Below are positions 1 through 10,233 of a stretch of 10,254 bases of DNA, piece by piece. Both the position numbers and the translations under genes were made by a program. The stretch comes from Actinomycetes bacterium (GTDB lineage: Bacteria > Actinomycetota > Acidimicrobiia > Acidimicrobiales > RAAP-2). The notes beneath the pieces are model-generated. The model saw only the letters and a list, made by a program, of their open reading frames with translations, did not search any database and was not told the DNA's origin. Within the stretch, counting starts at the first letter, position 1; the number at the start of each line of letters is the position of its first letter. The stretch spans positions 1 to 10,254 of the forward strand of contig JAJXTB010000095.1 of assembly GCA_021784205.1 (NCBI GenBank). Reading direction: 5' to 3'.

Positions 1-3000
1 TCTCTGTTCCACTTGAGATCCTTCGACTTCTTCAGTTCTTCATCACTGACGACGCCTGCTCTGGCTCGAACTTCCTCATACTTCTGGGTAACTTGTGCCA
101 TCGTGTCGTGAAGAGTTAGTGGACTGAAGTTGTATACGACCGCATCACGCCCACTCGCTACACCCAACGAGAATGTCGTAAAGATCGCATCGCTCTCCTT
201 GCCCTTCGCGTTCTCGTCGCCCAGCGGGGCTAGCTTGCCGTAGTCGGAGCGACGCTGATTGATCCAGTCGGCGAACTCATTGGGCACGATCGTTGTCCAC
301 TCGGGGCCCTTATCGGCGAAGTCGACGAGTTTTGCGAGCTTCTCCTCTCGAGTTAGGTAGTCGCCGATGTCGTGGTAATGGATGGTGCCCGGACCGGCGT
401 GCCCCTTCTTCTTCACGAGCAACGTGATAGTGACGGCGGTGCGACTGCCACCACCGAAGATCTTTCCGCCTTCTCTGCGGCTCTTCTCGCCCTGGGTCGT
501 GCGCTGATTCCCACGAAGGTCGAGCACGTAGATCTCGGCGAACTCGTCGACAAGACAGCGGCGCATGCCATCCATCGCATTGCCGATGAGCCACCCACCT
601 CCGCTCACGAAGCAAACGATGCCCTGTTCGCCAATTCGGTCGCTCGCCCAGCGAAACGCGCGGATATAGCTGTCATCGAGAGCTTTCGTATTGGTGGCTT
701 GGGTCTTGGCCTTGTACGACGCCGCTACTCGTACATCGAGGTCCGTGTACTTCTCGTTCTTGTCGCCATCGCCTTCACGCTCTTGACCCACCGAATACGG
801 GGGGTTCGAGATGATCACCTGTATGGGCAAATCCACCTGGTCGACGGCGCGTTTGGAGTTGTAGACGAACGTCTGGTCATTGCGCATCTGATTCCGCGTG
901 CTGTGCTCCGTCATCTGGAATGTATCGGTGAGGACCAGGCCGTCGAAGGGGATGTAGGTGCCCAAGCCATCCCCGTGGAAGGTCTCTTCGATGTTCACCG
1001 CTGCGATGTAGTAGGCGAGGAGCACGATCTCGTTGGCGTGGAGTTCGTAGCGATACTTGTGCTCGAGATTCTCAGGCTTGATCAAGCCGGAACCCATGAT
1101 GCGAGTAATGAAGGTTCCGGTTCCAACAAACGGGTCAAGGACGTGGACGCCCTTGTCACCGAGCGACGCACCGAGCGATTCCTGGAGTGTTCGCTCTACC
1201 GCGTGGATCATGTAGTCCACGACCTCGACGGGGGTGTAGACGATGCCGAGCTTGTCGGCGGTGACGCTGAACGCGCCCTGGAAGAACTTGTCGTAGAGCT
1301 CCTTGATGATCTGCTGCTTGCCCGCGGCAGTCTCAATGCCCTCGACCCTCTGGCGCACCGACGCGTAGAACTTGGACAGACTCTCCGTCTCGCTCTCCAG
1401 GTTCGCCCCTTCGAGCGTCGTGAGCATCCTCTCCATCACCTGACTCACCGGGTTGGAGTTCGAGAAGCTATACCCCTCGAAGAGGGCGTCGAACACGGGC
1501 TTCGTCACCATGTGCTGGGCGAGCATCTCGATTGCTGCTTCATCAGTGACACTGGGGTTGATGACGGCCCTCAACCCATTGACGAACTCCGCGAACTCCT
1601 CTCGCTGCGCTGAAGTGCCACGCTCGACGAGGGCGGCGATGCGTGTCTGGAATCGCTGCGTGATGTCCGCAACGTCCTTCGCCCAGTCCTCCCAGTACGT
1701 GCGCTGCCCAACTTTGGAGACGAGCTTGGCCAGGATCGCCTCACCCCACTCGGGCAGGTCACCGAGATTAAAGACCTTCTGGCGCTCGACGGGCTCTTCC
1801 GCGCTCGTCGACTCGTCCGGGTTATCTCTCTCGCCAACCGCGCCGAAGATTGTCTGCTCGCTAAGGGCTCTGTTGAGGTCGACCTTGTTTATCATCGCGG
1901 CGAATCGCTCGTCGTGAGAACGGAGGGCCTGGAGCACCTGCCAGACCGTCTTGTAGCGCTTGTTGTCATTGAGGGCTGCAACCGGGTCCTCGAAGTTCGG
2001 GATCGCGACGGGGATGATGATGTACCCGTACTGTTTGCCGTCACTCTTGCGCATGACCCGACCGACGGACTGGACAACGTCGACCACGGAGTTGCGTGGG
2101 CTAAGAAAGAGGACGGCGTCAAGCGCCGGGACGTCAACACCTTCAGACAGGCACCGAGCGTTCGACAGCACGCGCACCGTGTTGGGCTTCCCGGGTGCCT
2201 TCAACCACTCAAGTTCGGCGTTTCTCTTCAATACGTTGTGGGTGCCGTCAACGTGATGGACGTCGAGCCGGACGCTCTCCTCGTCATCATTCGTGAGCAG
2301 GAGGTCGTTGACTACCTCGGCGGCGCGATTCGTGAACGCCTTGGAGTCTCGAATGGACCTCGCAAAGGCGACTGCCCGCTTCATAGGTGCAGGGTCGGCG
2401 GCGAACTGATCGCTGCTGTCAGCGTTCTTCGCGAGTCCGTTGTAACAGCCGATTATTCGCGCGATGTCATCAATGGGTAGATCCAGCATGTTCGCCTGCT
2501 GGTCAGCCATCAGTCCAGCGACGAACTCCTCAGAGACTGAGAGAGTCACAACGCGGTAGTCAGAGAGCAGTCCCTGGGCCACAGCTTCGCCGAACATGAG
2601 TCGATGAAACTCCGGACCGTAGAGAGACTCGTCATCCATCGAGGCGAGCAGGGCATCAACCGACTCCGCCTTGGCCTTGACAGACTCTCCGTACACTCGC
2701 GGAGTCGCCGTCATGTAGAGACGCTTCGCGCCCACGATGTACTCGCCATCGTGAATCCTGACGAACGTCGACTCTTCTTCGTCGGCCAAGGTCGCGCCCG
2801 TGGTCCGGTGGGCCTCGTCGCAGATGATGAGGTCAAAGCCGGGCAGGCCCTGCTGCTGCGCCTGATGGATCACGTCCAGGGACTGGTACGTCGAGAACAT
2901 GACGGTCAATCCACTGAACCCTTTGGTTCGGCGATGGAAGTTCTCGACAAGGCGCTTGGCGTTGGTCGTCGCCGGATAGGCAAGATCGAACGACGCGATG

Positions 3001-3779
3001 TCGTCGTTCTCGCCCTTGTTCTTGCCCACCTTGGTGTCAGAGCACACGGCGAAGGAGCGAAGTTCCTGCGTGCACTCGGCGGTCCACTCGCGCAAGGTCT
3101 GGCTCAGGAGTGAAATCGACGGTACGAGGAAGAGGACGTTGCCCCCATTCGCAAGCATCCTCTCGGCGGTCTTCAATGACGTGAACGTCTTGCCAGTGCC
3201 GCACGCCATGATCAGCTTGCCTCGCTCGTGCGAGGTGAATCCGGCCACGACCTTCTCTAGGGCCTCGACTTGATGGGGACGAAGCTGCTTGCTCGGAAGA
3301 CGCGCGAGCGTCTCTGTCTCGGGCGCGAAGCTCGACCAGTCAATATCAGCCTGAGTGAAGTGCTCCAGTCCAATCCGCTGTACTGGCTTGGTCTGATCCT
3401 CGAGTGCGTGCTCGGCGTTCTGGCTCCAGTTGTTCGACGTCGTGACGATGATGCCCGAAGAGAAGTCCTTCTTCCCAAGTTCAGTGAAGAAGGTGCTGAT
3501 CGTCTTCTGGTCGATGTACTCGTCTTCGCCGTAGAACTTGCATTGGATGGCGCAGAGCTCACCGGTCACACGCTCGTAGCCAATGAGATCGATGCCCCGA
3601 TCACGTGTGTCCTCACGACCCGGCCACTCGCTGAAGGCGACGACCTTCTCGAAGCGCTGTAGGAACGCTGGCTCGGTCATCATGAAGCGCCGCACGAGGT
3701 TCTCGAAGCGCTTGCCCTTGTCATGCTCGTCGAGGGCCGAGGCGCGCAGTCCGTCCAGAATGTCGTAGAAACTGGTCAC
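1..3779 (-). CDS. Type ISP-like single-chain restriction-modification enzyme: nuclease, DEAH translocase and N6-adenine methyltransferase (3' end outside window)
   Basis: The frame was read codon by codon from 3779 to 1 with no stop, giving 1259 visible residues. Domains in order: (1) an Mrr-like PD-(D/E)xK nuclease with RDRGIDLIG and AIQCKF (D64, Q79, K81); (2) an SF2 helicase/translocase with Walker A ACGTGKT (K197, T198), DEAH box CDEAHRT (D321-H324), motif III YMTATP (356-360) and motif VI QSVGRVMRKSDGK (from Q570); (3) a SAM-dependent methyltransferase with motif I LDPFVGTGT (D882) and motif IV SNPPYSVGQ (N992-Y995), typical of N6-adenine enzymes. This order matches LlaGI/LlaBIII-type ISP enzymes, which bind a site, translocate on ATP and cleave when two complexes meet. 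Those proteins are roughly 1,550-1,600 residues, so the C-terminal target-recognition domain probably lies left of the window. The GTG at 3777-3779 was chosen because GAGGGG lies just upstream and MTSFYDILDGLRASA resembles the family's usual N-terminus; in-frame GTGs also exist further upstream. No frameshift is seen. Confidence 0.93.
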   Translation of the reverse strand, partial: MTSFYDILDGLRASALDEHDKGKRFENLVRRFMMTEPAFLQRFEKVVAFSEWPGREDTRDRGIDLIGYERVTGELCAIQCKFYGEDEYIDQKTISTFFTELGKKDFSSGIIVTTSNNWSQNAEHALEDQTKPVQRIGLEHFTQADIDWSSFAPETETLARLPSKQLRPHQVEALEKVVAGFTSHERGKLIMACGTGKTFTSLKTAERMLANGGNVLFLVPSISLLSQTLREWTAECTQELRSFAVCSDTKVGKNKGENDDIASFDLAYPATTNAKRLVENFHRRTKGFSGLTVMFSTYQSLDVIHQAQQQGLPGFDLIICDEAHRTTGATLADEEESTFVRIHDGEYIVGAKRLYMTATPRVYGESVKAKAESVDALLASMDDESLYGPEFHRLMFGEAVAQGLLSDYRVVTLSVSEEFVAGLMADQQANMLDLPIDDIARIIGCYNGLAKNADSSDQFAADPAPMKRAVAFARSIRDSKAFTNRAAEVVNDLLLTNDDEESVRLDVHHVDGTHNVLKRNAELEWLKAPGKPNTVRVLSNARCLSEGVDVPALDAVLFLSPRNSVVDVVQSVGRVMRKSDGKQYGYIIIPVAIPNFEDPVAALNDNKRYKTVWQVLQALRSHDERFAAMINKVDLNRALSEQTIFGAVGERDNPDESTSAEEPVERQKVFNLGDLPEWGEAILAKLVSKVGQRTYWEDWAKDVADITQRFQTRIAALVERGTSAQREEFAEFVNGLRAVINPSVTDEAAIEMLAQHMVTKPVFDALFEGYSFSNSNPVSQVMERMLTTLEGANLESETESLSKFYASVRQRVEGIETAAGKQQIIKELYDKFFQGAFSVTADKLGIVYTPVEVVDYMIHAVERTLQESLGASLGDKGVHVLDPFVGTGTFITRIMGSGLIKPENLEHKYRYELHANEIVLLAYYIAAVNIEETFHGDGLGTYIPFDGLVLTDTFQMTEHSTRNQMRNDQTFVYNSKRAVDQVDLPIQVIISNPPYSVGQEREGDGDKNEKYTDLDVRVAASYKAKTQATNTKALDDSYIRAFRWASDRIGEQGIVCFVSGGGWLIGNAMDGMRRCLVDEFAEIYVLDLRGNQRTTQGEKSRREGGKIFGGGSRTAVTITLLVKKKGHAGPGTIHYHDIGDYLTREEKLAKLVDFADKGPEWTTIVPNEFADWINQRRSDYGKLAPLGDENAKGKESDAIFTTFSLGVASGRDAVVYNFSPLTLHDTMAQVTQKYEEVRARAGVVSDEELKKSKDLKWNR

Positions 3780-4059
3780 CCTTTTCCCCTCGCTCGTCAC
3801 CGCCAATGCCGTACTCCTCACGCTAACCCTGGGGCACGATGAAGGGAGTCTTCTCTCACGAGGCTCGTGACGGGTGAGAGTTGAGGCTATGCCATATGAA
3901 TGAACCGCGGTCCGCCCGTATGAGCACGGATCTTGACTCCGGGAAAAGCGTCGAACCTGATTCAGTTAAATCGCGTCTTTCCCAGCAACTCCTTGAAGTC
4001 ACCTCCTTTCTGGGGCATTCACCTGGCCCCCATGTAGGCCGTGAGGTACGTTCGAGAAC
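3780..4059. promoter_or_regulatory. Divergent intergenic region between the R-M gene and the GIY-YIG gene
   Basis: This gap of about 280 bp separates two divergent genes and should hold both promoters. A TTGACT hexamer occurs at 3933-3938 on the plus strand, but no good -10 box sits 16-18 bp downstream, so I do not call a promoter there. A plus-strand reading frame from ATG 3897 runs through the gap and into the next gene out of frame. It resembles no family I know and is probably fortuitous. The gap is more A/T-rich than the genes to its right. Confidence 0.5.
3853..3880. repeat. Nested inverted repeats, candidate operator
   Basis: TCACGAG-G-CTCGTGA (3856-3870) is a perfect 7-bp inverted repeat around one central base. 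Overlapping it, CTCTCAC (3853-3859) and GTGAGAG (3874-3880) form a second 7-bp inverted repeat with a 14-bp spacer, sharing most of the left arm. The site lies about 75-100 bp upstream of the R-M start codon, a plausible place for a dimeric regulator. No regulator gene is visible in the window, so operator function is inferred. Confidence 0.4.
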
Positions 4060-4875
4060 ATGTCTTCCGACGTCTTTCCCTTCACGGTGCTCGTGCCCGA
4101 CGAGCCCGGTGACGCGATCGAACTGGTCGACCGCAACCACGCGCTGCGCCTGGCCTACGTTCACCGGGACTTCGTCACCCACCTCGCCGACCAGTGGGAC
4201 ACATCGGGCATCTACGTCCTGCTCGACCCGATCGGCGCTGATGGAACATGGGGTGCCTACGTCGGCAAGGCCGGAAGCGTCAAGACCCGCCTGCTGCGCC
4301 ACACCAAGGAGAAGGACAGCTGGCGACGCGCTCTTCTCGTGATATCCAACCAGCGCGAGCCCTTCCATACTGCCGAGATCGGCTGGCTCGAGGGCCAGGT
4401 CTTCAGCCTGCTCGCCAACTCCTACTACGCCCAGCCCTCCAATCGGCAGAATCCCGGCGACGACACCGTGGCCCCGTGGGACCAGAACAGCCTCTGGTCT
4501 ATCGCGCGTGGGGTGACCCACGCGCTACGCCTGCTTGGTTACGAGACCGCCGAAGAGGCGGAGATAGCCGCCGTCGAGCGCAAGCCCCGTACCCGGGTCA
4601 ACACGTCCAAGGTCTCACTCGCCGATCTCGCCGGAGGCAATCTGCTGCGAGAGGGCGATCGACTCGTCAGCCTCAACGGTCAGTGGCCCGCGCAGGCAAT
4701 CTTTCGGGCCCCGGATCAGATCCTCTTTAGGGACGGGGCGTTCTCGTCACCGTCGGCCGCCGCCTCGGCCGCGCGCGACGGCGGAGCTGCCAATGGGTGG
4801 ACGTTCTGGGGAGTCGTTCGCGACGGCCAGACAATCCCCCTCGCGGTGCTGCGCGCCGAGCTCGACGCTCACTGA
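4060..4875 (+). CDS. GIY-YIG nuclease with C-terminal RAMA-type (DUF4357-like) domain
   Basis: The protein has 271 residues. The GIY-YIG fold is seen as GIYVLL (50-55), then AYVGKAG (66-72) with R77 and R80 following, and a later Glu in EIGWLEGQV (E111) in the place of the metal-binding catalytic Glu. GIY-YIG enzymes cut phosphodiester bonds with one metal ion. The C-terminal half (about 186-253) has SLADLAGGNLLREGD, a basic strand segment, then SSPSAAASAA and NGWTFWGV. This is the signature of RAMA/DUF4357 domains, which occur in restriction enzymes and methylases and are proposed to read modified DNA. The ATG at 4060 has only a weak GAG upstream. The gene is divergent from the R-M gene and stands alone, ending 185 bp before the next gene. 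It may be a stand-alone, possibly modification-dependent, restriction nuclease. The domains are well supported; the biological role is inferred. Confidence 0.85.
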   Translation: MSSDVFPFTVLVPDEPGDAIELVDRNHALRLAYVHRDFVTHLADQWDTSGIYVLLDPIGADGTWGAYVGKAGSVKTRLLRHTKEKDSWRRALLVISNQREPFHTAEIGWLEGQVFSLLANSYYAQPSNRQNPGDDTVAPWDQNSLWSIARGVTHALRLLGYETAEEAEIAAVERKPRTRVNTSKVSLADLAGGNLLREGDRLVSLNGQWPAQAIFRAPDQILFRDGAFSSPSAAASAARDGGAANGWTFWGVVRDGQTIPLAVLRAELDAH

Positions 4876-4975: not shown

Positions 4976-4996
4976 CCTAACTTCAGGCGATTGCCC
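4976..4996 (+). repeat. 21-bp imperfect direct repeat, copy 1
   Basis: This copy matches 6573-6593 at 18 of 21 positions. The last eleven bases, GGCGATTGCCC, are identical. In this copy GGCGAT can pair with ATCGCC at 5006-5011, and GCCC with GGGC inside, so it also forms the left arm of an imperfect stem-loop (4986-5011). The two copies lie upstream of gene A and upstream of gene B. Confidence 0.5.
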
Positions 4997-5018
4997 CCGG
5001 GCGCCATCGCCCCACCTT

Positions 5019-5053
5019 CCTTTCGCACCGGCACGCCGTGCCGGTGCGAAAGG
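5019..5053 (+). promoter_or_regulatory. Perfect palindrome that sequesters the Shine-Dalgarno of DDE gene A
   Basis: Left arm CCTTTCGCACCGGCACG (5019-5035), one central C (5036) and a fully complementary right arm (5037-5053) form a 17-bp perfect inverted repeat; in RNA the innermost bases form the loop. The right arm ends in GAAAGG, the only good ribosome-binding site, 7 nt before the ATG at 5061. A transcript entering from outside would fold and hide the site. Such hairpins are known in insertion sequences such as IS10 and IS200, where they limit transposase made from read-through. No T-run follows, so it is not a typical terminator. Confidence 0.7.
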
Positions 5054-5060
5054 ACGTGTC

Positions 5061-6569
5061 ATGGACCGCAATCCGATCTCTGATCTCGAGGCCCTCGCGG
5101 CGTTGCCCGGACTCGAGGACCTCGCCGACATCCTGGTGCGTCACGTATCCAGCGGACGCCTGAAGCGTCCCCAGGCCCTTGGCGTCCTGATCTTCCTCGG
5201 GGGCCGCTGGGCCTTCGGTTCGGCTAACGCCTGTGAGTCCGCGCTGCGCTCGACCAACCTCTGGGAGGGCCTTCGCGAGTCGGCCGCCCGGGTGGGACGC
5301 TTCCTACCCGAGACGCCCCCGACCTACCACCAGTACGAGAAGATCCGTCGCCTCCTCGGTGAGGACCTGCCCCACGAGTTGTCGGAGGCCTTCAGCGCGG
5401 CCGCGGTCAACCTGGCCCAGTCGATCGGCCTATTGAGCGCCGAGCCCACGTCACGTTGGGACGCGCCCTCGCCCGGCTCGGTCATCTACGGCGACGGCTC
5501 GGTCTTCGCCCCGATGTCGGAGGTCACGTTCGACGAGAACGGCGAGGTGAAGGGTTCGCGGGCAAAGGAGAATCCCCGTCTCGGCCCGCACTTCAAGGGA
5601 AAGAAGGGCAACGAGAGCCTCGTGGGTGTTCCCATCACGCTCGTCGGTGTTCACGGGCGCAAGCGTTGGCAGCGGGTGATCCTCGGGGTCGACCTCTTCC
5701 TAGATCGAAACGAGATCGGCTCGGCGATGGGTGTCCTCTCCCGAGTGATCGGCCTCGCCAGTGGCGGGGTCAGCCACGTCGTCTACGACCGGCTCATGCA
5801 GGGAACCCACATCCGAGAGCTCCTACGCCTCGGGGTCGTGCCGATCGTCGAGATGCCCGAGGCCTCCCCAACTCAACCCCACCTCCTGCTGCCCTACGAA
5901 CTCCAGCGAGGGGGCTATCGCTCCGACGGGCGGCACGAGAAGAGAAAGGGCAAGGGCGCGCGTCACCGCTCCTCCGACAAGGTCGCCCCGAAGGCCCGAC
6001 TCTCCCTGCACTACCTACGCACCGAGGCCCACGAGACGGTGATCGGACCGTGTCACCACGAGCTCTGGGCCCTCGACGGCGCCCTCGTCTGCACGACGCC
6101 GGGGGTTGAGGTGAGCCTGGACGCACCCGTCGTCGAGTGCTTGAGCGCCCGATTCGAGGACGGCGAGGATGACCGACGGCTGCTCGGTACCCACCGCGTC
6201 CCCTGTCGACACGGCTCGTTCAGCGTCGAGATCGACTTCACGGCGTCGCGCCCCTCGTCGCGCACCCCTAAGCGCGAACTAGCCCTCGCGGACTGGCTTC
6301 GCCCGATCCCCGAGGTCAGTTCCGCCATCGACGGCCTGGCCGGTCTGCGCAGCGACGTCGAGTCCTCCTTTTCCTGGCTCAAGTCCCTCCTACCCCGCGG
6401 ACGGGCGGGCAGCCTCGAGCCCGAGGCGTTCTTCCTCGACGTCATCGGGGCGGGTCTGCTCTGCAACGCCATCGCCTGGGACGTGCACGCCGCTCGTCAC
6501 ACGCGCTGCGCCCAGCACGAGGCTCACCTGGACCGTCGAGGACGGCGCCGGCGGACGGTGACCATCTAG
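5061..6569 (+). CDS. DDE-type transposase-like protein A
   Basis: The protein has 502 residues. A helical N-terminal region (about 1-138) includes RPQALGVLIFLGGRWAFGSA. An RNase-H-like core follows: VIYGDGSVF (D145), a strand-rich stretch with WQRVILGVDLFL, SHVVYDRLM (D243) and, after a long basic insertion (about 288-315, many R/K), LRSDVESSFSWLK (E434). The D, D, late-E spacing and the ESxxSWLK context fit a DDE transposase; I do not recognise a specific IS family. The tail is strongly basic (RRGRRRR). The ATG at 5061 was chosen over upstream in-frame GTGs because GAAAGG lies 7 nt before it and the upstream residues look non-coding. Gene D (8458-9789) is a divergent paralogue with the same motif order. 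The protein is intact, with all three acidic residues present, so it may be active. Catalytic residue assignment is from motif context, not alignment. Confidence 0.78.
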   Translation: MDRNPISDLEALAALPGLEDLADILVRHVSSGRLKRPQALGVLIFLGGRWAFGSANACESALRSTNLWEGLRESAARVGRFLPETPPTYHQYEKIRRLLGEDLPHELSEAFSAAAVNLAQSIGLLSAEPTSRWDAPSPGSVIYGDGSVFAPMSEVTFDENGEVKGSRAKENPRLGPHFKGKKGNESLVGVPITLVGVHGRKRWQRVILGVDLFLDRNEIGSAMGVLSRVIGLASGGVSHVVYDRLMQGTHIRELLRLGVVPIVEMPEASPTQPHLLLPYELQRGGYRSDGRHEKRKGKGARHRSSDKVAPKARLSLHYLRTEAHETVIGPCHHELWALDGALVCTTPGVEVSLDAPVVECLSARFEDGEDDRRLLGTHRVPCRHGSFSVEIDFTASRPSSRTPKRELALADWLRPIPEVSSAIDGLAGLRSDVESSFSWLKSLLPRGRAGSLEPEAFFLDVIGAGLLCNAIAWDVHAARHTRCAQHEAHLDRRGRRRRTVTI

Positions 6570-6572
6570 TTC

Positions 6573-6593
6573 CCTAAATTGCGGCGATTGCCC
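6573..6593 (+). repeat. 21-bp imperfect direct repeat, copy 2
   Basis: This copy matches 4976-4996 at 18 of 21 positions, with GGCGATTGCCC (6583-6593) identical. It lies just after the stop of gene A and runs into the candidate right terminal repeat. It could be a transposase-binding site present near both ends, or a regulatory site shared by genes A and B. Confidence 0.5.
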
Positions 6594-6607
6594 GATTCGG
6601 CGGATCC
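6593..6607 (-). repeat. Candidate right terminal inverted repeat
   Basis: CGATTCGGCGGATCC is the 13-of-15 inverted match of 4956-4970 and is followed by ACA (6608-6610). It ends only 14 bp before the ATG of the next gene, so if it is a real insertion-sequence end the element sits in the 5' leader of gene B. Confidence 0.45.
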
Positions 6608-6621
6608 ACACCGTCGTGGGC

Positions 6622-7524
6622 ATGACGAACTCATCTGACACCACCACCGAGACCACCCTCAGCGCCGCTCGCTGGCAGACCTGGCACGAGGATGGCCTGC
6701 CCGAGAACCTCGCCACGCGCCTGCGCGCCACCGGCGTCTACAGCGAGGCTGCCATTGAGACCGTCACCGGCCTCGCCGGCGAGCTCGAGGCGCTCCTCGA
6801 GCACCACGCCCCGCTTCGAGCGATCGACTACTTCCTCGCAGAGCCAACCCTCTGGGCCGAGCGCCTCGATCGCTGGGCCAGCCTGCAGGTGCTCGAGCGC
6901 CTGAGCCAGCTGAGCGGTCCTGGTCTGCGGCGACCGCGCTGGGAGGCGCCCTCGCGGAACCTGCGCCGGCGCACCTTCACCGAGGTGGAGTCCGGACTCG
7001 TTCGCCACAGCGCACTCGGCTCGGTCGTTCGCTGCGCGAGCGTTGGCGCGCTCGACACCGGACTCGCCAGCGGAGAGCTGAACCGGTTCCGTGGAAGCGC
7101 AGTCCTGTGGGACGAGACCGGCACCGTCTGTGCCGTGATGACACCGGGGACTGAGCGCGAGTCGAGCTTCGGCTACCCCGTGGCCGCTCCGCGACGCCTC
7201 GAGGTGGCGGTCTGGGCGCGGGCGTCGCTCACGCGCCTGGCCGACGGCGCCCCATCGGACTCCCTGCTCCTCTACGGGGGACGCTCTAGCGACCCCGGCA
7301 AGGTCCAGTCCTCGATCCTCATGGTGGTGCGCAAGGCCCTCGTGCGCGCCGGACTCGGCGAGGACCCCACCGTCACTCCCCTCTCGGTGCGCAACACCGC
7401 TGGTCGGCGCGTCTACGACGAGCACGGTCTCGAGGCCGCGGCGGCCTTCCTCGGGCATCAGGACCTCATGAGTGTGGCTCGTGAGATCGGCATTCGCGAT
7501 CACCTACCGGCCCGCCAACGGTGA
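6622..7524 (+). CDS. Tyrosine-recombinase-like protein B, catalytic residues apparently lost
   Basis: The protein has 300 residues. The C-terminal half has the layout of a phage-integrase/Xer catalytic domain: ALDTGLASGELNRFRGS (144-159) corresponds to the GLRxxEL segment, and PLSVRNTAGRRVYDEHGLEA with AFLGHQDLMSV (about 253-285) corresponds to HxLRHT...LGHxxL. The first catalytic Arg is replaced (A149), the His of HxxR is not seen, R257 and H279 remain, and no Tyr appears where the nucleophile is expected (about 288). It is therefore probably not a working recombinase alone; DNA binding or partnering with protein C is possible. The ATG at 6622 was chosen (a GTG at 6616 is the alternative); no clear Shine-Dalgarno is visible. 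It follows gene A by 52 bp and precedes gene C by 34 bp. The C-terminal motif GLEAAAAFLG matches GVEAAAEALG in C. The fold is fairly sure; inactivity is inferred from motifs. Confidence 0.7.
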   Translation: MTNSSDTTTETTLSAARWQTWHEDGLPENLATRLRATGVYSEAAIETVTGLAGELEALLEHHAPLRAIDYFLAEPTLWAERLDRWASLQVLERLSQLSGPGLRRPRWEAPSRNLRRRTFTEVESGLVRHSALGSVVRCASVGALDTGLASGELNRFRGSAVLWDETGTVCAVMTPGTERESSFGYPVAAPRRLEVAVWARASLTRLADGAPSDSLLLYGGRSSDPGKVQSSILMVVRKALVRAGLGEDPTVTPLSVRNTAGRRVYDEHGLEAAAAFLGHQDLMSVAREIGIRDHLPARQR

Positions 7525-7540
7525 GTGCACGGATCTGACC

Positions 7541-7558
7541 GACCGGCACGGTGCGGTC
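7541..7558 (+). repeat. Imperfect inverted repeat abutting the ATG of gene C
   Basis: GACC-G-GCAC-G-GTGC-GGTC pairs with a single bulged G and ends one base before the ATG at 7559. It is short and could be chance in such GC-rich DNA. Its position directly before a start codon resembles the larger palindrome before gene A. Confidence 0.25.
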
Positions 7559-8458
7559 ATGGAGTCCACACCACAGGCCGGAGACTGGAGCAAGGTTCGC
7601 GGTCAAGGTCTTAGAGCCGAGCTCGCCGTCGTACGGGAGATCTGGGCACAGCAGCCGAGATCCGTCTCGACGAGGGAACGCCTCGGAGGGCTGATCGAAC
7701 GCTTCGCCACCCGCCTGGAGGTGACCGAGGTGACCTCGCTGCTTGCCGTCACGCGCGAGCACTGTGAGGGCTTCATCTGGGCCAAGACGCGCCGCCAGCA
7801 CAACCCCTCGCTCGCCACCGCCCACCTACGCCGCAGCGCCCTCACGGGCCTCTTCGCCGCGCTCCGTCAGGTCGAGCCGGGCTTGGTTGACCCGACCGTG
7901 GCCCTTTCGCTGCCGAGCAAGACCGAGCGCCGGGTGCGGCCCCTCAGTGACGCCGAGATAACGCGCGTACGCATCGCGGCCCTCGGACGGGTGCGCTCCT
8001 CACGGCGCGCCGCCCTGAGCGTCGCACTCGCCGAAGCGGGTGCGACCACCGGAGAGATCGCGCAGATCCAGTGGCGTGACGTCGATCTGGGTAGCGGGAC
8101 GGTCGATCTGCCCGGCGCGATGCCGATCCAGCCCCGCACGGGTCATCTCAGCTCCTGGGGACGGGGCGTCCTCACCCGCATCCACCACGACGCCCGACCG
8201 CGTCCCGAGGAGTTCGTGGTCCCGCGTCGAGTCGGGTACGCCGATCCTCACAGCGCCCAGGCCGCGATGGCGAACCTGCTCACCAAGGTCCTCGCCGCAG
8301 CCGGCGTCACCGGGCCGGGCGTACGGCCGGGTTCTCTTCGCCTCTGGGGCGCTCGCCAGGTGCTCGTCCGCTTCGGCGTCGAGGCGGCGGCCGAGGCGCT
8401 CGGGGTGACGAGCCTCGACGTCGCCCGTCGTGCCCTCAGCGTGGAGGAGGACCTCTAG
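7559..8458 (+). CDS. Tyrosine-recombinase-like protein C, catalytic residues apparently lost
   Basis: The protein has 299 residues from ATG 7559. The N-terminal part (about 20-115) looks like a core-binding domain, with TREHCEGFIWAKT, SLATAHLRRSALTGLF and VDPT. RPLSDAEITRVR (127-138) then opens the catalytic domain. AGATTGEIAQIQWRDVDL (160-177) matches the GLRxxELxxLxWxDVDL segment but has Thr where the first catalytic Arg belongs. GSLRLWGARQVLVRFGVEAAAEALG (about 258-282) keeps an Arg but lacks the His, and LGVTSLDVARRAL lacks both the second His and the Tyr. A DNA-binding or structural role is more likely than recombination. The ATG has no good Shine-Dalgarno. A GTG at 7472 with AGGA 8 nt upstream would overlap gene B by 53 bp and is a real alternative. 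The stop overlaps the GTG of gene D by one base, indicating coupled expression. Confidence 0.72.
   Translation: MESTPQAGDWSKVRGQGLRAELAVVREIWAQQPRSVSTRERLGGLIERFATRLEVTEVTSLLAVTREHCEGFIWAKTRRQHNPSLATAHLRRSALTGLFAALRQVEPGLVDPTVALSLPSKTERRVRPLSDAEITRVRIAALGRVRSSRRAALSVALAEAGATTGEIAQIQWRDVDLGSGTVDLPGAMPIQPRTGHLSSWGRGVLTRIHHDARPRPEEFVVPRRVGYADPHSAQAAMANLLTKVLAAAGVTGPGVRPGSLRLWGARQVLVRFGVEAAAEALGVTSLDVARRALSVEEDL
8443..8450 (+). promoter_or_regulatory. Strong Shine-Dalgarno for gene D
   Basis: GGAGGAGG ends 7 nt before the GTG at 8458. It lies inside the last codons of gene C and fixes the start of gene D, where TAGTG joins the stop of C to the start of D. Confidence 0.75.
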
Positions 8459-9789
8459 TGACTCGACATCGCCCGCCCAGCGTGGCTGAGCAGCTCGACG
8501 CCCTTTTCGCCAGTCCCCTGATCCACGACCTGGCCGCGGAGCTCGGGGATCTCGGTCGGCGCACCCGCCGACATCCCCTGGCGATGCACCTGGCCTACGG
8601 GGCGATGGCGCGCATCTACCGCTCGGCCAACCGCCTAGACGCTGAACTGCTGAGCGGCGACACGTGGCAGCGCGTCCTCGAGCGCTACAACGAGGGCGCC
8701 GCACACCACCCGGGCGGCGTCGTGATGAAGGCGACCACGCCGCCCCTGCTCGCCGACACCTACCGCCACGTGCGCGACCACCTCACGCACGATGAGAACC
8801 TCGAGACACTCCAGCTCGCCTTCACGACTCACTCGGTGGCCCTCGCCCAGCGGATCGGCTTGCTCGTGCCCCAGGGGGGCTCGCGAACGAGACCCCACCC
8901 GCGCCGCACGATCTACGGCGACGGCACCATCGTGCGCCCCCTCTACAACCGGGCCGAGCAGGGCCGCCAGGATCCTGATGCGCAGGAACACGCCCGCCAC
9001 GACGGACAGATCTACGGCAACAACCTGGTCGCCATCGCGGTGCGCGGAGAGGCGGTCCAACAACGCGTCATCCTCGCCGTCGGCCGGGTGCAGCAGCGTG
9101 GACACGAGGCCGACGAGGCCATCCGCCTCATCCGCCAGGTCCACGCCGTCGCCGGCGATGCCATCCAGGCCGTCGTCTATGACGGGGCCTTCCGTGGGGT
9201 GCACCACGAGATCCTGATGAGCGAGCTGGGTCTTCTCGTCGTCAACAAGGTCCACGCCGGCAGGCGCGATGGGGACCAGCGCGTGCACCGCCAGATCCCC
9301 CTAGGCGCCTCACGGCACGTGATTCGCGGTCGAGTCTGCGAGCACTCCCTAGTCGCCTCCAACGGCTCCGTCCACGAGGTCAGCCTCGACGACGCGGGCC
9401 AGCTGGTCCTCTCGGATCCCCTGAGGCGCCAACAGGTGCGCCGCTACCAGCGCGGCGGGGGCGGCTGGCGCTTCAGCCTCGGTGTGGTGGTGCCGTGTCC
9501 AAGGGGGTCGTACGTCACGTGGATCAGCCCGCACCCTCAGGCCGGAGAGCGCGGCCACGGCCGACCTGATCAGTTGCGACTACTGCCCGAGTCGGATCCC
9601 CACTTCCAGCGCCTCTACGGACTGCGCAACGACAGCGAGTCGATCAACCGCGGGTACAAGCGGACGCTGATCGCCGACCGGGCGGCAACTCGGGGTTGGA
9701 GAAGGCAAGGGCTCGACATGACTTCATGGAGTGTTCTGATGAACTCACTCGCCCTGTCGATGAGCTACCTCGAGCAGTCTCCGCAGTAA
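8458..9789 (+). CDS. DDE-type transposase-like protein D, paralogue of A
   Basis: The protein has 443 residues and a GTG start. Motif order matches protein A: an N-terminal helical region with HPLAMHLAYGAMARIYRSAN (A has RPQALG...FGSAN), ALAQRIGLL (A has LAQSIGLL), RTIYGDGTIVRPL (D155), QQRVILAVGRV, QAVVYDGAF (D242) and LRNDSESINRGYK (E394). The three acidic residues are in place for a DDE nuclease fold, so it may be catalytically competent. It lacks the long basic insertion and basic tail of A and is 59 residues shorter. It overlaps gene C by one base with a strong Shine-Dalgarno, so it is probably made together with C in a fixed ratio. It ends 27 bp before the convergent PIN-like gene, where composition changes sharply. 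The closest IS family is not recognised, and a non-transposition role within the B-C-D unit remains possible. Confidence 0.75.
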   Translation: MTRHRPPSVAEQLDALFASPLIHDLAAELGDLGRRTRRHPLAMHLAYGAMARIYRSANRLDAELLSGDTWQRVLERYNEGAAHHPGGVVMKATTPPLLADTYRHVRDHLTHDENLETLQLAFTTHSVALAQRIGLLVPQGGSRTRPHPRRTIYGDGTIVRPLYNRAEQGRQDPDAQEHARHDGQIYGNNLVAIAVRGEAVQQRVILAVGRVQQRGHEADEAIRLIRQVHAVAGDAIQAVVYDGAFRGVHHEILMSELGLLVVNKVHAGRRDGDQRVHRQIPLGASRHVIRGRVCEHSLVASNGSVHEVSLDDAGQLVLSDPLRRQQVRRYQRGGGGWRFSLGVVVPCPRGSYVTWISPHPQAGERGHGRPDQLRLLPESDPHFQRLYGLRNDSESINRGYKRTLIADRAATRGWRRQGLDMTSWSVLMNSLALSMSYLEQSPQ

Positions 9790-9816: not shown

Positions 9817-10233
9817 CTATTTGATAGGAACTCGAAGTTCCTGGATCTTGGCCTCGGTAACTTGAAACACCCACGGACCTGGTCCTGCCTTAAGAATCTC
9901 CCTTTCGATCTTCTCCCATCGCGTCACAAGTAGAACGAACTTCTCCCAGCTAGTTCGATCTTTCTTCGCGCTAACGTTGAACATTCGGATGCCGTTGTTC
10001 GTAAGGGCAAGAAGTTCAGCGGGTTTCTCCCTGATCCGTTTGTCTTGTGTGATGACAACCAAATCAAGACCTTGCTTGCCAATTACGGACAGCCACTCTT
10101 CATCCTTCGTCCCCCTCGGCACCTGAGGAAGATTCCGATGTCCCGGGTAGCACACATCCTCACGAACCGCGTCGAACGCCTTCCCCACGGGGATCGTGTC
10201 TTCGTCGAAGAAATATAGGAGCCGCGGCGTCAT
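9817..10233 (-). CDS. PIN-like domain nuclease, probable toxin of a toxin-antitoxin pair
   Basis: The protein has 138 residues. RLLYFFDEDTIP (D10, E11, D12), GTKDEEWLSV (D44, E45) and DLVVITQDKRI (D64) give the spaced acidic residues of PIN-like RNases, in the single-domain variety that opens with an FFDED-type strand (DUF5615/PIN_10-like). Such proteins cleave RNA and are usually held inactive by a partner encoded just upstream. The C-terminal third (about 90-138) is charged with WEKFVLLVTRWEKIE, probably helical. The ATG at 10231-10233 overlaps a TGA in another frame (ATGA), as expected for an antitoxin-toxin junction. GGGGAG lies 14 nt upstream, too far to be a strong site, which fits translational coupling. 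Base composition is clearly less GC-rich than the A-D block. The family is probable; toxin function is inferred. Confidence 0.7.
   Translation of the reverse strand: MTPRLLYFFDEDTIPVGKAFDAVREDVCYPGHRNLPQVPRGTKDEEWLSVIGKQGLDLVVITQDKRIREKPAELLALTNNGIRMFNVSAKKDRTSWEKFVLLVTRWEKIEREILKAGPGPWVFQVTEAKIQELRVPIK

Follow-up and report, generated by a model that had tools for sequence, protein, structure and literature searches.

The locus examined here raises the question of why two DDE-type genes and two integrase-like genes stand together in one cassette, and what such a cassette might do. It lies in a stretch of 10,254 nucleotides from an acidimicrobial contig (referred to as the window), with all four genes on the + strand. 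Gene A (5061–6569) encodes a DDE protein of 502 aa, B (6616–7524, starting at GTG 6616 or ATG 6622) an integrase-like protein that has lost catalytic residues, C (7559–8458) an integrase-fold protein with catalytic residues lost as well, and D (8458–9789) a DDE protein of 443 aa with a Tn5-like fold and a Y-2-R-3-E-6-K motif. The reading frame of C is open from 7472, yet most homologues start at the position of 7559. The original prediction of a DDE/recombinase-like/recombinase-like/DDE cassette on one strand is confirmed: the gaps of 52 and 34 bp are reproduced with B starting at ATG 6622 and C at 7559, C and D overlap by one base at 8458, and sequence comparison shows A and D to be one paralogous pair and B and C another. 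Judged from sequence, the cassette probably supplies the transposition functions of a DDE transposon that carries cargo and homes to tRNA genes, with B and C as selectors.

A DDE triad combined with a Y-2-R-3-E-6-K signature is the mark of Tn5/IS4-like transposases. In A, the triad D145/D243/E434 is invariant in an alignment of 26 sequences, and in D the signature residues are Y387, R390, E394 and K401. Across 56 DDE ORFs, the glutamate and the arginine are each present in 52, the lysine in 40 and the tyrosine in 28; the tyrosine is absent from A, and tyrosine and lysine are often replaced. The predicted structure of D is a Tn5-transposase fold. Unlike Tn5/IS4-type transposases, A and D have only sub-threshold family matches, the best curated-family scores being 13.0 bits to DDE_Tnp_1 for A (cut-off 23) and 13.3 bits to IS1182 for D (cut-off 270). 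Nothing relevant was found for D among the sequences of solved structures, and no match among phage records. The two divergent DDE proteins seen in many elements, the integrase-like partner and the tRNA targeting are further differences from the Tn5/IS4 type.

C barely passes the Phage_int_SAM_1 profile (22.4 vs a cut-off of 22.3 bits), and B has no match in the curated family libraries. In a weak alignment of B with XerA (E 0.062), the first arginine and the histidine are lost and the second arginine is kept. For the catalytic set R..H-x-x-R..Y, 37 integrase-like ORFs retain Arg I in three cases, His II in one and Arg II in 28, and none of the 21 aligned C homologues has a tyrosine in the expected column; P0173 and two plasmid copies have one three residues further on. 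C is predicted to adopt the integrase fold, with structural matches that include SPbeta MrpR, YopR and phi3T SroF, which we take to be inactive integrase folds serving as regulators. These matches lend some weight to a different role in the same transposon, that of repressors of the module instead of selectors, and so does a repeated motif upstream of A and B, although we regard this role as unlikely. The motif, CTAA.TT..GGCGATTGC, occurs on the + strand ∼65 bp upstream of A (4976–4996) and again upstream of B (6573–6593), giving two matches in the window against a mean of 0.00 in 200 shuffles. In the form CTAAATTGCGGCGATTGC it is also seen upstream of A/B in two other loci (L005 at 6521 and 8119; L004 at 7175). 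Closer to A there is a perfect 18-bp hairpin on the + strand (5018–5054; RNA fold z -6.6), whose 3' arm holds AAAGGA, the ribosome-binding-like stretch of A. By covering that site it may damp translation of A, and weaker hairpins occupy the same place in L004 (z -2.4) and L005 (z -2.6).

Whether the genes belong together was assessed in 395 genomes of the same class (Acidimicrobiia). Matches to the D family occur in 29 genomes and to the C family in 31, with 22 genomes on both lists. The neighbourhood of C was read in 28 of the 31 (leaving out G278, G337 and G359), and D lies directly 3' of C in 21 of these; two have B-type genes 3' of A, two are cut by a contig end, and in three (G310, G245 and G117) C lacks a DDE gene beside it on the contig. 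These three genomes would suit a chance neighbourhood of unrelated mobile genes, in which the homologues would mostly be found apart. The recurrent C-D adjacency and the coupling of the two DDE clades described below refute it, and we give it a negligible probability. The position of C directly upstream of D also argues against repressors. Beyond the class, loci found via D show the C-D pair in Geodermatophilus, Blastococcus, Cellulomonas, Actinotalea and Nocardioides, and it is present on Mycobacterium and Streptomyces plasmids.

The order A-B-C-D is shared by the window and three loci (L004, L005 and L007). Elsewhere the order is A'-C-D with B not found (L009, L104, L098), divergent, with B'A' reverse and CD forward (L010, L014, L015, L017), or C-D-A'-B' (L011, L019), while many Acidimicrobiia, and L013, have C-D only. 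The pair in L013 is of the D-role type and has no second DDE gene in its locus; this, and the absence of B from L009, L104 and L098, indicate that the four genes are not always required. Given this variety, the mirror-image order that had been remarked upon as a feature of the cassette has little meaning in itself. In the closest chromosomal relative (genome G208), gene A is split over two frames (L005, 6607–8098), and in L004 a DUF6994 gene is found between B and C on the opposite strand (8251–9033).

Of 56 DDE sequences placed in a midpoint-rooted tree, 34 form a two-DDE clade (support 1.0), which divides into an A-role clade (16 sequences, support 0.99), which holds A, and a D-role clade (18 sequences, support 0.70), which holds D. 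Single-pair elements fall outside it, as 19 sequences (support 0.68) and three from plasmids. An A-role gene is present in 13 of the 18 D-role loci and absent in L006, L012, L013, L095 and L106, with L006 and L095 being short contigs. The split between the two roles is read, from the sequences, as one old duplication followed by co-inheritance.

Comparison of loci showed that the homology past D stops at tRNA genes. A tRNA on the same strand starts no more than 600 bp 3' of the DDE gene in 22 of the 35 loci of the survey that have a DDE match; the same holds for 1 of the 329 other predicted genes of those loci, the tRNA idea having been drawn from the same loci in which its frequency was counted. 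Two further loci have a truncated tRNA 3' of the DDE gene (L100 and L119, 10 and ∼40 nt), and three carry the tRNA on the other side of the module (L098, L104, L115). The remaining eight are L095, L097, L102 and L113, at contig ends, and L106, L121, L127 and L128. No adjoining tRNA gene was found for L127/L128, L121 or the Mycobacterium plasmid copies; L127 and L128 are two 92%-identical D-side stretches of one genome with differing flanks. The tRNA types at the element are Arg, Lys, Thr, Ala and Gly. A weight matrix for the tRNA-side end scores at least 15 at tRNA nucleotide 1, or no more than 2 nt from it, in 16 of 22 ends, a circular figure, since 20 of these 22 ends had served to build the matrix. 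A further, identical tRNA-side end, not counted here, lies 83 kb away in G083, beside only the first 10 nt of the tRNA.

By eye, many tRNA-side ends show two or three tandem repeats of ∼12 bp that reach tRNA nucleotide 1. Such repeats would suit integrase-like proteins that bind only the transposon ends, as architectural partners, and leave the choice of target to the DDE proteins. We think this doubtful, as end binding alone does not account for insertion always at nucleotide 1 of differing tRNAs; one protein could serve in both roles. So strict a choice of site needs a recogniser, which also counts against B and C as repressors, and there is a precedent for that role in TnsF of Tn6022, an inactivated tyrosine recombinase which, in the excerpts of the source, is required for DDE transposition into comM (PMC10293859).

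A generic alignment of flank against flank gave no clear inverted repeats, and the ends emerged only with the tRNA as anchor: one end was fixed at the tRNA, and an 8-bp copy of tRNA nucleotides 1–8 was sought beside a matching inverted repeat. Ten elements of 7–42 kb, each with one end abutting the tRNA, have inverted repeats and an exact 8-bp duplication of nucleotides 1–8 of a tRNA for Arg, Lys or Ala. Those at tRNA-Arg are in G208 (16,782 bp, tRNA-Arg(CCT), with GGGACTTCCGCG as a 12/12 inverted repeat), L108 (6.9 kb), G042 (28.2 kb, its DDE gene a fragment) and L014 of Actinotalea (23.4 kb, tRNA-Arg(TCT)). Those at tRNA-Lys are in G190 (16,020 bp, with GGGACTGCAAGA as a 12/12 inverted repeat), L019 (19.0 kb) and L015 (42.2 kb) of Nocardioides, L011 of Blastococcus (20.6 kb) and L017 of Cellulomonas (19.1 kb), and L123 (9.4 kb) adjoins tRNA-Ala. 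These ten came from 34 tRNA/core contexts, tested as sets of 22, 4 and 8, of which two more gave weak ends (G002, G110) and 22 none; many of these are short contigs, but G252, G322 and G019 were searched over ∼51, 112 and 42 kb, respectively. Shorter stretches of L014, L013, L019 and L101 yielded no ends. In a control on the 21 tRNAs of two test rounds there were seven strong pairs, one weak pair and 13 without a pair, the last comprising Phe, Asp and Glu three times each, two Lys, Ala and Thr, with one Lys-type context counted within. Among these 13, the Lys of L010 and the Thr of G382 resemble element ends whose partner was not found. Behind the far duplication, G208, G002 and L017 continue with the tRNA-side end of another element, a tandem insertion. 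The hallmarks of DDE transposons, terminal inverted repeats and a duplication of fixed length, are thus seen in ten relatives, the window's own ends being off its contig, and comparison supports the suspicion of a mobile system with defined ends recurring at different sites.

As tRNA genes are classic integrase targets, it might be argued that these are conventional tyrosine-integrase islands in which the cassette is a passenger. Probable conventional integrases (one cluster, weak profile matches) do lie 3' of the tRNA in L107 and L125, and L107 has a 44-bp tRNA 3' repeat. However, the bounded elements have inverted repeats and an 8-bp duplication and lie on the 5' side of the tRNA, and the integrase-like proteins of the cassette are without catalytic residues, which makes this view very improbable.

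The window's own element can be approached through its genus. In G208, of the same genus, the module has 71% nucleotide identity, and the end GGGACTTCCGCG..CTCCGCG..TTCCGCG abuts tRNA-Arg(CCT). Of 14 further genomes of the genus with a readable upstream region, four have the same end there (G425, G428, G434 and, diverged, G433), and the other ten, e.g. G055, have no such end at tRNA-Arg. In G428 (L226–L227) and G433 (L228–L229) no A-D genes were found within 36–40 kb of the end, and these ends are read as relics or non-autonomous elements. In the window's genome (G000), the end stands before a whole tRNA on contig 134, and before tRNA nucleotides 1–42 only on contigs 27 and 126. Three loci (L216 and L217 of this genome, and L219) have the element end and nucleotides 1–42 of tRNA-Arg followed by one of two shared sequences; the truncations are perhaps the work of a different integrating element with its site in the anticodon loop. 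Over bases 1–237, the window's contig shares 84% identity with bases 295–531 inside the contig 134 end, so the element probably begins ∼295 bp before the contig, which would put A at a distance of 8.1 kb from its end, compared with 7.6 kb in G208.

Since the contig would then start inside the element end, the defence genes on it, restriction among them, appear to be cargo. They are a type ISP-like restriction-modification enzyme on the - strand (3–3821, running off the window; ISP_coupler, Mrr_cat_2, ResIII and N6_Mtase domains, PADLOC REase_MTase_IIG) and a PDC-S14/RAMA-domain protein on the + strand (4060–4875), a candidate defence protein; both are probable cargo, with neither end of the element on the contig. 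The PIN_10 protein beyond D (9817–10233, - strand), cargo or flank by position, is probably cargo too, the far element end being off the contig. The PDC-S14/RAMA protein has, by eye, what we take to be a GIY-YIG motif, without a profile match. Tsy transposons carry a GIY-YIG nuclease as well, according to excerpts of PMC10293859. Scans of selected proteins from the bounded elements identified type I restriction genes in L014, with homologues in L015, L017 and L019, an ApeA-like HEPN protein in G190 and a UvrD-HRDC helicase in G208; an OLD-like ATPase and a cytosine methylase come from G002 and G110, whose ends are weak. Two adjacent genes of G208 presumably represent an IS21 insertion. No Tns genes (TnsC, TniQ, TnsA) were recognised among the selected cargo proteins scanned. 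The frequency of restriction-modification and other defence genes among neighbours and cargo accords with the suggestion, made at the outset, of a domesticated DNA-processing system, or with an anti-phage defence system. Against it stand the variable cargo, the presence of defined ends, and copies that are inserted in tandem or decayed, and we see hardly any likelihood in either form of it.

An empty site in related strains had also been proposed as a check. Host DNA past the far end of the 20.6-kb Blastococcus element (G398) has matches of 86–94% in 8 of 22 other Blastococcus genomes (L253, L254, L255, L257, L258, L261, L263, L271), in each case to sequence lying at most ∼250 bp upstream of tRNA-Lys, with ∼0.66 kb next to the G398 junction unmatched in those eight. 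These are candidate unoccupied sites, for which a base-exact junction was not obtained. An alignment to the joined flanks crossed the junction in occupied genomes as well and is therefore not used as evidence of empty sites; searches with the flanks of G190 and G127 for their relatives gave no useful information.

On the preferred reading, a tRNA-homing transposon with B and C as selectors, A and D, whose DDE triads are kept, would cut and join the element ends, and B and C would recognise the tandem end repeats, the tRNA gene (possibly through its conserved 5' half) or both, and so bring the DDE proteins into place. The presence of two divergent DDE proteins in a single element points to a heteromeric machine, possibly with one protein per end. 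With one end at tRNA nucleotide 1 the tRNA stays whole, and the tRNA-side end may provide a replacement promoter, which would make insertion harmless; TAGGCT-like stretches were noted by eye in the tRNA-side ends of the window's genus. The earlier idea that the dead integrase-like proteins give target or end binding would fit the tRNA targeting and, by analogy, the TnsF precedent. Whether the elements form a new class, with two Tn5-like DDE subunits each paired with a burnt-out integrase that reads the tRNA, homing to the 5' end with no need of an AAA+ regulator and supplying the promoter anew from their own end, seems to us evenly balanced.

Several known systems share parts of this arrangement. 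Tn554, RIT elements and integrase islands have several tyrosine-recombinase-fold proteins per operon, or integrate at tRNA genes; they differ, to our knowledge, in using active tyrosine recombinases and no DDE chemistry. There is a close likeness in composition to Tn6022, a Tn7-like DDE transposon with the inactivated recombinase TnsF as partner, from which the selector role here is drawn by analogy. In the excerpts of its description, Tn6022 has TnsA, TnsB, TnsC and TniQ, the target comM, and a TnsF with zinc fingers and a partial catalytic domain (PMC10293859), whereas here D is Tn5-like and insertion is at the 5' end of tRNAs. CASTs and other Tn7-like elements resemble ours as cargo-bearing DDE transposons that home to tRNA genes; in the portions of PMC11406308 at hand, they find their site via TnsD/TniQ or a guide RNA, with no dead-integrase core, and their ends are typically 5'-TGT, with some exceptions, in contrast to the GG with which all ten bounded elements begin. 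Eukaryotic Dada elements also show DDE insertion at a fixed position in tRNA or snRNA genes, with a 6–7 bp duplication, but their transposase is distantly like IS256 and hAT, and no integrase-like partner is described in the excerpted text (PMC3706591). Among the matches listed in the open-access literature, no title or abstract describes a bacterial Tn5-like transposon that has dead integrase partners and sits at tRNA 5' ends; preprints and most subscription papers fall outside that scope. The family, apparently undescribed, would combine site-specific DDE transposition with a repurposed recombinase and may amount to a new class.

If this is true, it would be a second instance of an inactivated tyrosine recombinase directing a DDE transposon, the setting being simpler than Tn7 (a two-gene core in single-pair elements) and the target one that every genome has. 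It could account for those islands of Actinobacteria that are linked to tRNA genes and carry defence genes but show no working integrase, and would offer a compact, testable system for how transposases gain fixed targets.

The plasmid copies have a layout of their own. In five Mycobacterium plasmids (L135, L137, L138, L139, L140) the integrase-like/DDE pair is accompanied by a divergent short (HTH) gene and three more genes, and in L139 and L140 part of the integrase-like gene is missing. A left end guessed in L137 (GGGACGTC) showed no clean duplication. A right end resembling GGGACGTCTTTGAATACC is common to different Mycobacterium plasmids.
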